This document shows positions 26,730 to 31,453 of a DNA stretch of 38,550 nt, one piece after another (position 1 is the first letter of the stretch; each line of letters begins with the position of its first letter). The DNA is taken from contig CAIVDS010000094.1 in the NCBI GenBank assembly GCA_903904685.1, positions 1 to 38,550 of the forward strand, read 5' to 3'. The DNA comes from an uncultured Verrucomicrobiota bacterium. GTDB taxonomy: Bacteria > Verrucomicrobiota > Verrucomicrobiia > Opitutales > Opitutaceae. The notes beneath the pieces were generated by a model. That model ran no database searches and was not told where the DNA came from. It saw only the letters and a list, made by a program, of their open reading frames with translations. The translations under genes and the position numbers were made by a program.

Positions 26730-27134
26730 TCATCCTGTCCGAATCAGCTCCTTGAACGCTTCTCGTTCCTCACCACGATCAGCCAAAGCCTTCCATTTTT
26801 TAATGAAATTCTCCCACTCAGCTGTCTTCTTCAATGCGTTAAAAAGCACCTCCGGCAAATGCCCCTTTAGGTCGTTCAGATCGTAACAAACGATCTGATG
26901 ACCAGCCTTGGCATTGCCGGGGGCTATATGATCAACCGCCGCATAAAGCGGGTGACATCCCTTACCTCCTTTTACGCACTTTCCGTGTTCCTCTTTATTG
27001 AACTTCAAATCAACTCCAGAAAGAGTGCATTTCCCCTCTTGTTTTTTGATGAGGTTGCGCAGGGCTAGTTTGCCAAGACCCTGCTTGCGACGCACCCACT
27101 CTTCCTGCTCTTCGGTTAAAATATAGTTTTGCAT
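26730..27134 (-). CDS. HNH-endonuclease-like protein
   Basis: A 134-residue protein with a beta-beta-alpha-metal (HNH) layout. The first zinc-knuckle-like turn is GKCTLSGVDL (Cys36). The core Asp68-His69 pair lies in AAVDHIAPGN. The closing Asn and Lys-Gly lie in VCYDLNDLKGHLP (Asn87, Lys90), which corresponds to the usual C-x-x-C-N-x-x-K-G end with some cysteines lost. Between them is a Gly/Cys/Lys-rich insertion (HGKCVKGGKGCHP). A helical tail follows. HNH enzymes nick or cut DNA in restriction, homing, phage packaging and defence. It starts 24 bp after the RusA-like stop and is clearly AT-richer than the glycan genes, which suggests recent acquisition. The active-site reading is moderately sure, the biological role is not. 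Confidence 0.7.
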   Translation of the reverse strand: MQNYILTEEQEEWVRRKQGLGKLALRNLIKKQEGKCTLSGVDLKFNKEEHGKCVKGGKGCHPLYAAVDHIAPGNAKAGHQIVCYDLNDLKGHLPEVLFNALKKTAEWENFIKKWKALADRGEEREAFKELIRTG

Positions 27135-27158
27135 GATAAATGGGGAAGGGATCTGAAT

Positions 27159-27611
27159 TTATTTACGCTTATTCCACTGAGCCTTCATGCACGGTTCAAG
27201 ATAATAGTCATCCGCCCCCTTTAACGTCACCACTTTCTTAGGCAGGGCTTCGACGAAAATTATAAGATGAGCGTCCTCTTCTTTTTCGGCCTTCAACTTG
27301 AGTGTTTCCAGCCAGAGAACAGCTCCGTCTTTGCCGGGAACCTCGGAGAAGATCGTTTCGTTCAAGGCGTCCATCACCGCACTGGCCAAATTATCCACGT
27401 CGGAGCCGTAAGGATGGTCGGCCGGATAGCGATTGGGCGGCAAAACAAAGCGAAGCTCCAACTTGCACGGTCCCTTTATTTTTGGGGTGCGCTTGGTCGC
27501 TTGGATGATGAGCGATTGCCATGCTTTCACCCCGGCTTTGTTTCCGCGCGATTTGAAGGAGCCATAGGCTCCACCCTCTACAATTATCATGTGTGGTATT
27601 GCGCGTCTCAT
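27159..27611 (-). CDS. RusA-like Holliday-junction resolvase family protein
   Basis: RusA-type enzymes are small dimeric nucleases, common on prophages, that resolve four-way DNA junctions. The ATG at 27611 gives 150 residues and starts 17 bases after the ATPase stop; the longer open frame upstream overlaps the ATPase and is rejected. The family core is visible: RFVLPPNRYPADHPYGSDVDN with Asp71 and Asp73-Asn74, then VMDALNETIF and a third acidic position at Asp95 in GKDGAVLW. The spacing parallels the three catalytic aspartates of E. coli RusA (Asp70, Asp72, Asp91). A 25-residue tail beyond the domain (GADDYYLEPCMKAQWNKRK) is not assigned. Activity on junctions is inferred from the motifs. 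In this setting it could be a replication or recombination partner or an effector nuclease. Confidence 0.72.
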   Translation of the reverse strand: MRRAIPHMIIVEGGAYGSFKSRGNKAGVKAWQSLIIQATKRTPKIKGPCKLELRFVLPPNRYPADHPYGSDVDNLASAVMDALNETIFSEVPGKDGAVLWLETLKLKAEKEEDAHLIIFVEALPKKVVTLKGADDYYLEPCMKAQWNKRK

Positions 27612-27628
27612 TTTTGGAATGGTTGATT

Positions 27629-28891
27629 TCAAGGGGAGAATCCCGCCCGCCGCTGACCGGGACTGAAATGGGTCTTCACAATCTGGATGGCATCCATGAC
27701 GACCTCCGGCAAAGGACGCTGCTGCCTCTTCGCCAGCGTCAGGGCCGTCCGCCTTATCTCCGAAAAATGAGCCCCTGTGAGATCTAACCCTTGGCAGGCT
27801 TGAATCATGACAGGCGTCCAAGTCATCTCCGGGAAAATCTTTTCAAGCATTTCCTCGACGACAGCCGGTTCCGGCGGGGCGATGTGGTAGCGACGGTTAA
27901 AACGCATCGGTCGCTTGGCCACGGCATCGTCAATAAGGTCGATGTAATTGGTCGTCGCCACCGTGACCACCGGTTCGCTCCAAGCCTGAATGCCGCTCAG
28001 GAACTGGAGAAACGGCGCCAATCCCGGATTCCGCCCGGTTTTCAGACGGCTTTCGGTGAAGCTGTCCACGTCCTCAAGGATGACAACGCAGGGCGAGAGG
28101 AAGTTGTCGATGAACTCACGAAGCGCCAAAAAATCGACGTAGCCGTAAAGCGTGCAGGCGGTGAACCCTTTCTTGAGCGTGTCGCGAATGACCGCCTGAC
28201 AAATCAAGGACTTGCCGGTGCCGGGCGGACCATACAGGAGGATGCCGTTGCTCTGGTGGACATCGGTGAGCTGAAAGCTGGTGTTATCCTGAATGTCATC
28301 CGCCAGTTTTTCCGGCAGTGAAATCTTCGACCATTCGGTGGTCGGGCAAGGCAGGATGCGCACATCCAACCCGCAGTCCCCGTTTTCAAACAAGAGGTGT
28401 TTGCCCCGATAAGGGTTCTGCGCTCGGACGAGTGTCTTCAGTTCATCCACCAAATCCCCGATGGGAAACCGCGCCGACAAACTTTGGGTCAAATGACTCA
28501 AATCCACCTGATAGCTGAGCAACCGTCCGTTGATGCAGTAGGCGGTGGACCCAAAGCCAAGCAAGGCCACGCTCTCGTTTTCACCCACCGGAAACTCCAC
28601 CGTCAAAGCTTCCCCCGTGATCAAATGGTCGGATGACAGTTCACGCAGGCGTTGCTGAATCACGCATGCCGTCAGTTTGGCCGTGAGCAAATCCGGCGCG
28701 GTCCAGATATGACTCGGTTTACATTCGACCGGCTGGCCTTCCAAAGAATCGCCTCTCCGATCCGGCCTTTCCCGCTGATTTTGGATGATAAGCTTCACGC
28801 CGATCATCCTATCAGGCTGGCTGTGACAACCACGGTCACAGCGGCGATTATTATTTCGCCCGCAGACGTCGCAGAAAGGCTTGAGAGGCAT
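27629..28891 (-). CDS. AAA+ ATPase, BCS1-like, with possible N-terminal zinc motif
   Basis: A 420-residue protein with an N-terminal region of about 200 residues that is not recognised, followed by a classical AAA domain. Walker A is GPPGTGKS (221-228). Walker B is VVILEDVDSF, with the Glu-Asp order of BCS1-like enzymes. Sensor 1 is TVATTN, and the arginine-finger region is KRPMRFNRRYHI. It should form a ring that remodels protein or DNA complexes. If the ATG at 28891 is used, the N-terminus carries FCDVCGRNNNRRCDRGCH, a possible zinc knuckle, and overlaps the WYL gene by 41 bp. If the ATG at 28807 is used, the protein has 392 residues and a 43-bp leader with a palindrome. I cannot decide between them. 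It sits between the regulator and the RusA-like nuclease, so it probably works with the nucleases. Confidence 0.85.
   Translation of the reverse strand: MPLKPFCDVCGRNNNRRCDRGCHSQPDRMIGVKLIIQNQRERPDRRGDSLEGQPVECKPSHIWTAPDLLTAKLTACVIQQRLRELSSDHLITGEALTVEFPVGENESVALLGFGSTAYCINGRLLSYQVDLSHLTQSLSARFPIGDLVDELKTLVRAQNPYRGKHLLFENGDCGLDVRILPCPTTEWSKISLPEKLADDIQDNTSFQLTDVHQSNGILLYGPPGTGKSLICQAVIRDTLKKGFTACTLYGYVDFLALREFIDNFLSPCVVILEDVDSFTESRLKTGRNPGLAPFLQFLSGIQAWSEPVVTVATTNYIDLIDDAVAKRPMRFNRRYHIAPPEPAVVEEMLEKIFPEMTWTPVMIQACQGLDLTGAHFSEIRRTALTLAKRQQRPLPEVVMDAIQIVKTHFSPGQRRAGFSP
28821..28841. repeat. Inverted repeat at the WYL/AAA junction, possible operator or hairpin
   Basis: CTGTGAC (28821-28827), AACCACG, GTCACAG (28835-28841): perfect 7-bp arms around 7 bases, 10 bp after the WYL stop and 13 bp before the ATG at 28807. 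It could be a binding site for the adjacent WYL regulator, an RNA hairpin controlling the ATPase, or chance sequence inside the longer ATPase frame. Confidence 0.5.
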
Positions 28892-29897
28892 CCCTCGTCG
28901 CTTTTTTAAGCTCCGGGGGTGCGATCACGTCCACATGAGGAGCCCAACTTAGCACCCAGCGAAGAATGTCCTGAAGCGCACTCACGGTAAAACGCACTCT
29001 TAACCGTCCACCGGGAAGCAAGGTGTTGCGCTGGGAATGGTGCCACTGCCGCTCGGCGATATGCGAGGCGACGCCCGCATCAAACTCCAACGTCACGGCG
29101 AATCTCCTCTTCCTGCCGAAAAAAATTCCAAAGCTGCCTTTAAGCAGCTTGTGAACGTCGATGTTCGGCGGCGGCGTGAAGCTTGTCTTGGTCAAGACGA
29201 GAGCCTGCATCCGCGAAAGATGAAAAGTCCGCGTGTTGCCGACACCGGGATCGTAGGAGAGGAGATACCACGCGCATTCGTAGGTGAAAAGATGCAGCGG
29301 CCACACTTCCCTTATCCCCGTCTTGTTTTCGCCAGGTTTAGCGTAGGCGAAACGAACCGCCCGACGGGTTTTGATCGCTTTTCCCAACGTGCTCACCGCC
29401 TCCAAATCGAGCGATGCCGCAGGGTATGCCTGCACGGAAACAGAGTGGTGCAGATCATCCATGGATAACGTGACCGTTTCCGGCATCATGGAGCCAAGCT
29501 TGCGGGCGATGGCGCGTAGCTTTTGGGCGGTGCCAAGATTTCCGCCGACAGCGGATGAACGCTCGGCGATAAAAAGAGCGAGCAATTCACCTTCCGTAAT
29601 TTGAATGAACGGAAGGTTTGCCACGGCTTCGGTCAAAAAATAACCGTTACGGGCGCGATCAAACGCAATGGGAAGCTGCTGCCGATCACGCAAGAAATCG
29701 AGGTCACGAAGCACCGTGCGACGGTCAACCTCCAGTCTTTGAACCAGCGTAGAGCAGTTGGGAAAACTCCTCTGCTGTAATTCCTGAACGATCACCTGCA
29801 ACCGCTCCAGCATCGGGCGGGAGAGTGCGCTTTTCACCGTGCGATGGACACCGCCTGCTTCCTTTTTTGGTAATCGTATGGATGTAGGGGCGGTCAT
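28851..29897 (-). CDS. WYL-domain transcriptional regulator
   Basis: A 348-residue DNA-binding protein from the ATG at 29897; in-frame ATGs at 29954, 29975 and 30011 are possible but give a leader without homology features. The winged helix (about 28-92) has LVQRLEVDRRTVLRDLDFLR as recognition region. The WYL domain (about 165-235) has WPLHLFTYECAWYLLSYDPG with Trp210-Tyr211-Leu212 and the basic RTFHLSRM. The C-terminal WCX-like part is at about 263-345. WYL regulators sense nucleotides or nucleic acid and often repress defence operons such as CBASS and BREX; this is family knowledge. Here it heads a series encoding an ATPase and two nuclease-like proteins, which suits a repressor of a toxic module. 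A tandem TAA TAA stop ends the gene. Confidence 0.9.
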   Translation of the reverse strand: MTAPTSIRLPKKEAGGVHRTVKSALSRPMLERLQVIVQELQQRSFPNCSTLVQRLEVDRRTVLRDLDFLRDRQQLPIAFDRARNGYFLTEAVANLPFIQITEGELLALFIAERSSAVGGNLGTAQKLRAIARKLGSMMPETVTLSMDDLHHSVSVQAYPAASLDLEAVSTLGKAIKTRRAVRFAYAKPGENKTGIREVWPLHLFTYECAWYLLSYDPGVGNTRTFHLSRMQALVLTKTSFTPPPNIDVHKLLKGSFGIFFGRKRRFAVTLEFDAGVASHIAERQWHHSQRNTLLPGGRLRVRFTVSALQDILRWVLSWAPHVDVIAPPELKKATRDASQAFLRRLRAK

Positions 29898-30032
29898 GGA
29901 GACGACGGATTGCGGGCATTCTTCGTAAGCGTTGAATCCTCTTAAATCAACCATCAGTGGTTTGATCCCATTCATGCTTCTCAGGGCACGAGAAGAATGC
30001 AGGATCAGCACAGGGCTTCCGAGGCCGCGGGC

Positions 30033-30743
30033 TTACTTGGAGGCGCGGTCGGGGCGGAGCTTGAACTCGATGCGGATGCCGGCGTTGCCTTTGCGACTCG
30101 CGGGCCAGAGAGCGTCCACCGCGTATTGGATCTCGCGGCGCAGCCCCGAGATTTCCTTCACGCGGTCTCCATATCGCGCACGCACGGTCGTCGCATCGGA
30201 CTGGTCGCCGGACTGCGTGGTCTGCACCACCGCGTAGGCGACAAGGGCTTTTTGAAACGCGACGAGGTCCGCCGGCTTCATGCCGGGCAGGGCGTCGGTC
30301 GCGAGGTGGGCGAGGATCGTCTGCGCGGCGCTTTCGAGGGTTACGCGGCTGATCGCGAGGTTGTGGCCGACGAAATATTTGGCGCGCAGGGGGTCGGCTG
30401 CCTTGTATTTGCGCTTGGCCCGCGATTGCACGAGCGAGACGAGGGCGAGCAGGTCGGCGCGGCAGGCGTCTTCGTTTTGCGTGGCGACCTTTCGGTCGGC
30501 GGTCTGGCCTTCGGCGGCGGCGGCGAGGGCGGCGGCTACGGCCAGCCGGACGCGGATGTCGGCGATGAAGGCGGCGTCGATGCCTTCCGTGGCAAGGGCG
30601 GCGGCATAGGCGGGTTTCTCGGCGGTGCCGACGATCTCCCCGGCCAGCAACAGCGCGGCGGCGTGGCGTTGGTTGAGGAGGGAACGGCGGCGCCTGGTCT
30701 TGACCGGCGCGGGCGCGACGGCGGGTTGGGTATCTTCGGGCAT
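30033..30743 (-). CDS. Hypothetical alpha-helical protein, 236 residues
   Basis: Not recognised. It has a basic N-terminus (VKTRRRRSLLNQRH), then alanine-rich helices (AAALLLAGEIVGTA, RLAVAAALAAAAEGQ). A lysine/arginine-rich middle (SRAKRKYKAADPLRAKYFVG) and a C-terminal stretch (YAVDALWPASRKGNAGIRIE) follow. There is no signal peptide, membrane helix or catalytic motif. The third-position GC is high, like the host and unlike the HNH/RusA genes. It is transcribed towards the WYL gene (135-bp gap) and its upstream side faces the 21-bp repeat array. A nucleic-acid-binding structural role is possible from charge alone. It may belong to a lineage-specific family. Confidence 0.7.
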   Translation of the reverse strand: MPEDTQPAVAPAPVKTRRRRSLLNQRHAAALLLAGEIVGTAEKPAYAAALATEGIDAAFIADIRVRLAVAAALAAAAEGQTADRKVATQNEDACRADLLALVSLVQSRAKRKYKAADPLRAKYFVGHNLAISRVTLESAAQTILAHLATDALPGMKPADLVAFQKALVAYAVVQTTQSGDQSDATTVRARYGDRVKEISGLRREIQYAVDALWPASRKGNAGIRIEFKLRPDRASK

Positions 30744-30778
30744 GGCAACGGGGATAAGGCTGGCGTTGATGATCGGCG

Positions 30779-30798
30779 CCGTTCCCGCAGCGGGACGG
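30779..30798. other. GC-rich hairpin in the leader of the 236-residue gene
   Basis: CCGTTCCCGC (30779-30788) and GCGGGACGG (30790-30798) pair with one unpaired T around a one-base centre, and outer GGCGC/GCGC sequence may extend it. It lies 36 bases upstream of the ATG at 30743 on the minus strand and could affect translation; it has no T tract. Confidence 0.3.
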
Positions 30799-30817
30799 AG
30801 GGCGCACCCTCGCCGCG

Positions 30818-31453
30818 ATGCCGCGTCGTCGGATTTCCCGTCAACGCGGTCGAACGCACATCAAGGGCGTTACTTTCAAAAGACTGCGTTCCCGTAAGGT
30901 CAAAGGTTCCCGACGGTGGGTTTTGAGGTAGTTTGGCGTAAAATCAGGCCAAAAAGACGATCTTCTAGCCCTTCTTCGCGAGAACTTGGAGTTTCTGGAT
31001 GAAAACTTAGCACGACTTGGCATAGACTTAGCCAAACTTGGCGAAAACTTAGTGTGACTTGGCGTCCGCATAGCCAAACTTGGCGATGACATAGCATTTC
31101 TTGGCGACAACTTAGCGCGACTTGGCGTTCGCATAGCATCACTTGGCGTCGTAATAGTCCTCCGTGGCGTCGGCATAAGGTTTCTTGGCGAAAACATAGC
31201 ATTCCTTGGCGATCACCTAGCATGGCTTGGCGACCGCATAGCGTGCCTCGGCCAACTCATAGCGTCCCGCCCTAAGTTCATAACATCCCGTCACAAGCCT
31301 CTGGCGTCCCGTCACCGGTTCTTAAGCCTCCGACACCGGTTCATAGGCCGCCACCATGAAAACTTGGCATGCCGTGGCGATCCCACAGCATGCCGTGACG
31401 ACCGCAATGCCAGCCTTTGCGACCGAGAGGGTTCCGTCGTTACGGCAGTTTGA
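30818..31453 (+). pseudogene. Interrupted frame: basic 37-codon ORF plus leucine/glycine heptads
   Basis: An ATG at 30818 opens 37 codons of very basic protein (MPRRRISRQRGRTHIKG, then FKRLRSRKVKGSRRWVLR) ending at TAG 30929-30931. The same frame continues through FGVKSGQKDDLLALLRENLE into the heptad repeats, meets a TGA at 31055-31057, and finally stops at 31451-31453. Both internal stops are one base from TGG. The layout of a basic head and coiled heptad tail would make sense as one protein, so a decayed gene is the simplest reading. There is no second start codon within the heptad part except rare TTG. Alternatively only the 37-residue peptide is real, or the repeats are non-coding. Confidence 0.35.
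30959..31441 (+). repeat. Degenerate 21-bp tandem repeat array, about 23 units
   Basis: Units of exactly 21 bp stay in register across about 480 bp. The best-kept units (31001-31252) share the pattern TTA/ATA-GC-N4-CTTGGC followed by a variable six bases; units to the right decay towards TCCCGTCAC-type sequence. On the plus strand each unit encodes seven residues of the form x-x-(I/L)-A-x-L-G, for example VRIAKLG, DDIAFLG, DNLARLG, DRIACLG. Wobble bases of the alanine codon vary (GCA, GCC, GCG) while GC is kept, which hints at past coding. However, the Leu-Gly codons do not vary, so the evidence is mixed. There are no spacers and no palindromic repeats, so it is not CRISPR. It ends exactly at the stop codon of the large minus-strand gene. 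Confidence 0.85.

Follow-up and report, generated by a model that had tools for sequence, protein, structure and literature searches.

The window, a 38,550-nucleotide stretch of DNA from an uncultured Verrucomicrobiota bacterium, carries a tandem array of 21-bp units upstream of a gene that reads away from it. Array and gene together are a repeated genetic element with a scattered occurrence in the Verrucomicrobiota, and this anatomy is firm. The array is non-coding DNA, and from one element to another the 21-base spacing is kept while the sequence of the unit mostly differs.

Anatomy of the array

Approximately 23 units of 21 bp occupy positions 30953-31435 of the window in a single phase, which bears out the preliminary description of a tandem, in-register array of that size. 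TRF reports rows for the array at 21, 42 and 63 bp. Self-matching at a lag of 21 reaches 0.68 in the best 126-bp stretch (z = 14.6 against 100 block shuffles), and 21 ranks first among 29 periods. When periods of 12-60 were scanned across the window the array proved to be the sole strong long periodic run, detected at 30969-31424 for period 21 and at 30955-31363 for period 42. Phase is kept over every whole-unit distance, from one unit to 19. The flanks have a GC-content of approximately 0.65, which drops to 0.47-0.49 over the left half of the array.

The array divides into two main zones (Table 1). In the unit of zone A, CTTGGCGNNNNCWTAGCNNNA, variable triplets alternate with fixed blocks. 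A BLASTN search with the array as query recovered a nearly full-length relative in the same genome, at C113:1044-1523, and partial relatives on contigs C70, C58, C14 and C9, which have zone B in common with the window and different zone A units. The rightward decay noted previously is mostly the appearance, from position 31268, of a second unit type (CGTCACNNGTTCATAGCNTCC) found in other copies; decay is not the only cause.

Table 1. Coordinates of the element in the window.
Feature	Positions	Strand	Remarks
Companion gene; 236-aa protein, predicted all-helical, with a disordered N-terminus and two similar halves	30033..30743	-	
Spacer (leader), from gene start to array	30744..30931		Partly common to copies on C9 and C14
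First units, degenerate, in-phase 21-bp (by eye)	30932..30994		
Zone A: 13 units CTTGGCGNNNNCWTAGCNNNA, the last one transitional	30995..31267		Type as in array C113:1044-1523
Zone B: 8 units of another type (CGTCACNNGTTCATAGCNTCC followed by end units)	31268..31435		Also in C70, C58, C14, C9 and C113

Association of array and gene

The genome from which the window comes (3.2 Mb in 114 contigs) holds 10 copies of the companion gene without internal stops, on ten contigs, together with two pieces; one of the 10, on C14, is cut by a contig end (218 of 236). The nine copies other than that of the window encode proteins with 40-64% identity to the window protein, and on both C14 and C9 the gene adjoins an array as it does in the window. 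A contig scan recovered 17 relatives, titled Verrucomicrobiales, Verrucomicrobiaceae, Limisphaerales, Verrucomicrobia (one subdivision 3), Opitutaceae, Rariglobus and Akkermansia; four are titled without a group and one is titled Klebsiella, a label that we doubt. The gene occurs in six of 94 close genomes, that of the window included, in three of the six as short pieces only. Among 387 genomes of the phylum, with at most seven candidates scored per genome, it occurs in at least three, again counting that of the window, one of them holding a piece.

Sequence upstream of the gene was analysed for 28 genes or gene pieces. Where a full-length or near-full-length member has 700 bp or more of upstream sequence, as 20 do, 21 is invariably the best of 29 periods (z between 5.0 and 21.7, lag-21 match 0.50-0.87). 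These members (C94, C9, C14, C26, C113b, C24, C114, C98, C19, L110, L093, L095, L094, L109, L099, L096, L098, L101, L100 and L112) comprise nine from the genome of the window, two from same-genus genomes (G010 and G011) and nine contig-scan records, of which five are titled as Verrucomicrobiota groups, three carry no group and one is the doubtful Klebsiella; 11 of the 20 thus come from other genomes. Outside this set stand eight cases. For one of them, the C-terminal piece L102, 21 is also the top upstream period (z = 4.8). No upstream 21-bp signal was found for the other seven, namely L103 (broken frames, 306 bp upstream), the single-half variants L106 and L107, and the pieces L108, L114, L097 and L105. 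The gene on C43 has only 20 bp upstream. Downstream of the gene, 21 is the top period in just 4 of 26 testable cases, and weakly so (match 0.41-0.47). The near end of the array lies about 76-513 bp from the gene start, apart from a zone of C26 at a distance of 8 bp.

No consistent neighbour gene was found among 18 proteins scanned in the relatives: six have no family and the others include UvrA, RCC1, a glycosyltransferase, an aldehyde dehydrogenase, a GHMP kinase, an esterase and a type IV secretion coupling protein. A CRISPR array was rejected, the units being contiguous and no Cas family being present among the neighbour proteins scanned (a set of 5, and 18 in relatives). In the window, positions 26730-28891 of the minus strand encode an AAA ATPase weakly like the anti-phage ATPase IteA (46.9 bits, cut-off 510), together with 220-aa and 134-aa proteins without families; a WYL/HTH regulator adjoins them at 28851-30011. 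This ATPase group, 3' of the companion gene, is perhaps a small defence-type or mobile module.

The period is kept while the sequence turns over

There is no universal unit across arrays. At protein identities below 40%, the similarity of unit profiles averages 0.27, compared to 0.25 for the null; the pair L093 and L094 is an exception (array similarity 0.70 at 45% protein identity). The arrays of C94 and C9, whose proteins are 62% identical, have a similarity of 0.26. Over 20 elements array similarity and protein similarity are weakly correlated (Mantel p = 0.007, rho = 0.22), with the array on C63, which opens with a C114-type spacer and may be that of the C43 gene, assigned to that gene by assumption. 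The correlation is little different without C43 (19 elements, p = 0.008, rho = 0.23), and among pairs below 60% identity p is 0.025 and rho 0.18. Within the genome of the window the two similarities are uncorrelated (8 elements, rho = -0.01, p = 0.54). Private co-evolution of array and protein is accordingly not seen inside this genome, where the units have turned over faster than the proteins.

Spacing behaves differently. Cyclic alignment of 26 arrays (10,188 bp) counted 20 indels beside 3,438 departures from consensus. Of the indels, 17 lie no more than about 16 bp from an array end, and only three (in C98, L096 and C58) are interior. This interior count is a minimum: self-match at 21 bp set the limits of each array, a choice that favours stretches in phase, and the aligner, in which no indel longer than 6 bp was permitted, overlooked a slip of one base in C9 that is evident from the lags. 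In the lag analysis of 16 arrays, an offset of zero was best at every lag in 11; C19 and L110 fail at the longest lag only, and C9, C98 and L096 slip by one base. Comparison of 10 array pairs gave 907 substitutions and 12 gaps, of which seven are of 21 or 42 bp and five are not (20, 44, 1, 1 and 29). Spacers are also gap-poor, with 456 substitutions and 12 gaps in eight pairs. Higher-order repeats of 42 and 63 bp are common among the arrays, as in satellite DNA.

A 10.5-bp signal in AT content is absent from 21 arrays or zones (AA/TT z = 2.1), and a general 10.5-bp half-unit motif, seen by eye in the window unit, was rejected for arrays at large. The same 21 arrays or zones show a 7-bp modulation of AT content inside the unit (third harmonic; z = 3.6, one of 60 tests).

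The companion protein

The 236-aa protein has no meaningful family score in Pfam, NCBIfam, PHROG or PADLOC; the PADLOC defence models gave two matches, with E of 0.017 and 0.032. Neither a recognisable DNA-binding domain nor a catalytic domain was found, and no transposase family matched the gene in Pfam, NCBIfam or PHROGs. An AF2 model built on a 12-row alignment (pLDDT 84.5, pTM 0.56) predicts two tandem sets, each of short helices and a 56-residue helix. The two halves show a modest similarity: they align in hhalign pairwise comparison with E of 0.001-0.0015 (Prob 16.6-21.1; 20 column-shuffled controls at most 0.8). Searches with the model returned generic helical bundles in Foldseek (best E 0.09) and a Z of at most 9.4 in a VIA fold search, within the range that the tool calls common for bundles; a PDB sequence search gave two matches, with E of 0.42 and 0.59. 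The proteins range in pI from 5.2 to 9.9 and are not uniformly basic.

Three pairs from the genome of the window with more than 60% identity have pN/pS ratios of 0.83, 0.70 and 0.94 (p = 0.2-0.81 against 1) in frames without stops, compared to 0.27, 0.28 and 0.49 for three pairs from other species. So many replacements in intact frames suggest diversification rather than simple decay, although relaxed constraint may also account for ratios of 0.70-0.94.

Two loci (L106 3920-4300 and L107 3776-4156) encode 127-aa variants with a single half, in which model positions 7/8-81 are joined to 187-240. Being near-identical, they count as one observation. Gene fragments mostly retain the C-terminus, which is both the best conserved part and the sole pattern used in the contig scan for relatives; C-terminal fragments are for this reason uninformative, nothing was drawn from them, and retroelement-like 5' truncation was set aside. 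C-terminal gene pieces lie within approximately 2 kb downstream of a full copy at L109 (4120-5634) and L100 (6324-6461), and at L100 the piece and the full copy have near-identical following sequence.

A proposed phased DNA scaffold

The explanation that we favour, tentatively and at somewhat less than even confidence, is that the array serves as a DNA scaffold in helical phase, to which the two-halved protein encoded next to it binds. It is suggested by the way phase is kept while non-coding sequence turns over beside the gene for such a protein. Twenty-one bp correspond to two turns of B-DNA. The array would be the DNA component of a chromosomal element in two parts, with the gene on one side reading away; the protein would bind its own array with roughly one molecule on each unit, the two similar halves contacting the two helical turns along one face of the DNA, and many molecules would align to give a nucleoprotein filament. 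Such a filament, we propose, would impose selection for exact phase and leave unit sequence free to change. It would probably regulate the gene and mark or position that piece of chromosome, in a centromere-like or selfish manner.

Consistent with the scaffold are the primacy of 21 upstream of 20 of 20 members, the three interior indels set against 3,438 substitutions, the zero offset of 11 of 16 arrays at every lag, the alignment of the protein halves, the lack of a 21-bp array upstream of the single-half variants L106 and L107, the pN/pS ratios of 0.70-0.94 in intact frames and the weak correlation of array with protein over 20 elements. Against it stand the lack of a recognisable DNA-binding domain, the modest resemblance of the two halves, the generic folds, the spread of pI and the missing 10.5-bp AT signal, together with the uncorrelated arrays and proteins of the window's genome, the five of 12 array-pair gaps that are not multiples of 21 and the paucity of gaps in spacers too.

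Alternative explanations

The repeat might instead act as RNA, the array being transcribed (as a long 5' leader or separately) and the repeating transcript bound by the protein or by something else. The position of the array 5' of the gene, at the distances given above, is compatible with this, as are hairpins with T runs, terminator-like by eye, that follow several companion genes. Folding also favours the gene-sense strand over its complement in 11 of 17 segments; the margin exceeds 10 kcal/mol in C14, C24, C98 and L110. However, the energies of the sense strand are indistinguishable from those of column-permuted arrays (z between -1.9 and 2.0 for the 17 segments), no gathering-level Rfam match was found in the window, and an exact spacing of 21 is not needed by an RNA repeat. 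A structured RNA family was rejected on the first two grounds, and we regard an RNA scaffold as unlikely.

Array and gene may also constitute a mobile element that transposes, with gene-less arrays as internally deleted, non-autonomous copies and with a protein that aids movement. The 10 gene copies on ten contigs favour such a history, as do gene-less arrays: 400 kb of the window's genome away from gene copies, hand-picked from contigs of known length and not random, contains three strong long arrays (C21, C43 and C19), all of period 21/42. At C112 and C49 a piece of the gene's 3' end is retained beside an array, and at C19 (38.4 kb) the 3' flank; genes can thus be lost while arrays stay. Past the same left-hand gene as at the C21 site, none of eight same-genus loci has a strong array, and the same is true of 12 of 12 loci for the C43 site (three with only 0.4-1.1 kb visible). 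Yet none of the eight other loci yielded the neighbour that lies to the right at the C21 site, so that empty sites could not be defined. Nor do the ends of 10 loci carry consistent inverted repeats (seeds of 9, arms of 16 or more), a catalytic domain was not found in the protein, and no relative was found in viral contigs (one pattern), plasmids or phages. A classical DNA transposon was rejected for want of a consistent terminal inverted repeat pair among the 10 loci, and a RAYT/REP or IS element because the gene matches no transposase family in Pfam, NCBIfam or PHROGs. Mobility of this kind strikes us as slightly less likely still than an RNA scaffold.

Several elements have further features in their surroundings. 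A clear integron integrase (L090 625-1776; TIGR02249, 420 bits, cut-off 265) lies tail-to-tail with the companion gene copy on C19 of the window's genome, which raised the idea of an integron cassette. At L094 (3-731) the companion gene is near a type IV secretion coupling protein (PF10412), the sole hint of a conjugative setting. By eye, several elements (L070 on C14, L090, L085 and L071) seem to have dispersed palindromes close by, and zone B of C14 (L070) is interrupted by a hairpin-like insert.

A passive origin, in which 21-bp arrays arise neutrally by slippage or unequal recombination next to an uninvolved gene, is improbable. Higher-order repeats of 42 and 63 bp and gaps of whole units are typical of unequal exchange, and at a looser threshold the 400-kb sample from the window's genome also shows runs of 15, 18, 24, 27 and 30 bp (5, 14, 3, 10 and 5, compared to 12 of 21 bp). 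Against this, one period recurs in 20 elements with mostly unrelated units, phase-breaking indels are rare, and only 21 and 42 occur among the strong long runs of that sample; no strong long array occurs in 400 kb of G010, which has one gene copy, or in 400 kb of G015, which has none. The preliminary description had offered a non-coding minisatellite as one possibility: within its limits that was right, but it missed the companion gene, the conservation of period rather than sequence, and the dispersal throughout the genome.

Its other possibility, the relic of a coiled or solenoid protein read as heptads on the plus strand, fails. That frame is not open, the unit at 31037 reading CTT GGC GAA AAC TTA GTG TGA with a stop at 31055-31057. 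In 13 of 26 arrays none of the six frames is stop-free, and diversity does not track codon phase (combined p = 0.50 over 26 arrays, not all independent). Compared to a column-permuted null, 3-bp power is low for AT (z = -2.5) and SS (z = -2.7), and not for purines (0.4). Any unit free of stops resembles a heptad protein, since 21 is divisible by 3. That the array is a relic or active gene for a heptad-repeat protein is thus highly improbable, even though the period equals seven codons and, in C113b, the 21-bp period enters the companion gene's own start to give heptads in the N-terminal tail (L085 2754-2950), as perhaps also in C26 (by eye, L084 about 1860-1982).

Relation to known systems and implications

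Closest in anatomy among described systems is StbA with the stbDRs of plasmid R388, a plasmid stability system in which a small DNA-binding protein is associated with direct repeats around its own promoter (PMC3098194). The stbDRs form two sets of five 9-bp repeats with two-nucleotide spacing, an 11-bp interval of roughly one helical turn (PMC3098194). Both systems place tandem repeats next to the gene for a small protein. StbA/stbDRs is plasmid-borne, with one repeat sequence, an stbABC operon and demonstrated binding; the element of the window is chromosomal by context, exists in many copies, does not conserve its sequence and is only a putative target of its protein. The companion protein scores above no Pfam or NCBIfam cut-off, and membership with StbA or with pSK1 par is not claimed.

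The par system of pSK1 has a single coiled-coil partition protein with an N-terminal HTH and repeats upstream of its gene. Coiled coil, similar size and upstream repeats recall the present element; the HTH does not, none being recognised in the companion protein. Plasmid iterons, which adjoin the gene for the Rep protein that binds them, are helically phased direct repeats some 17-22 bp long. They differ in their origin function, conserved iteron sequence and Rep folds, and the companion protein has no Rep family match. RAYTs are transposases and REP elements are palindromes; dispersed repeats, a rarer companion gene and orphan copies are shared with the present element, but no transposase family and no inverted repeat within the 21-bp unit were found here. 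Eukaryotic centromeric satellites, as generally understood, resemble it in a period that is kept, in sequence turnover, in higher-order repeats and in a fast-evolving partner. The element described here is bacterial, its unit and arrays are far smaller, and the binding of its partner is putative.

A wider interpretation, which we hold to be doubtful, is that of a bacterial satellite-DNA system in which the period (two helical turns), not the sequence, is the heritable signal. Each array would be paired with a fast-evolving filament protein, and the system would have multiplied in one genome into distinct pairs and orphan arrays, a prokaryotic parallel of the conflict between centromeric satellites and their proteins.

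Searches of an open-access library turned up no description of such an element. Because most units share nothing, sequence searches detect little of it, and conserved spacing without conserved sequence, tied to an unnamed gene family in several groups of the phylum, is outside what annotation seeks. The element gives a concrete test of function for that unannotated family. If the protein reads the spacing, bacteria would provide a small experimental system in which to study satellite DNA together with the protein that binds it, as well as a collection of natural DNA-scaffold pairs.
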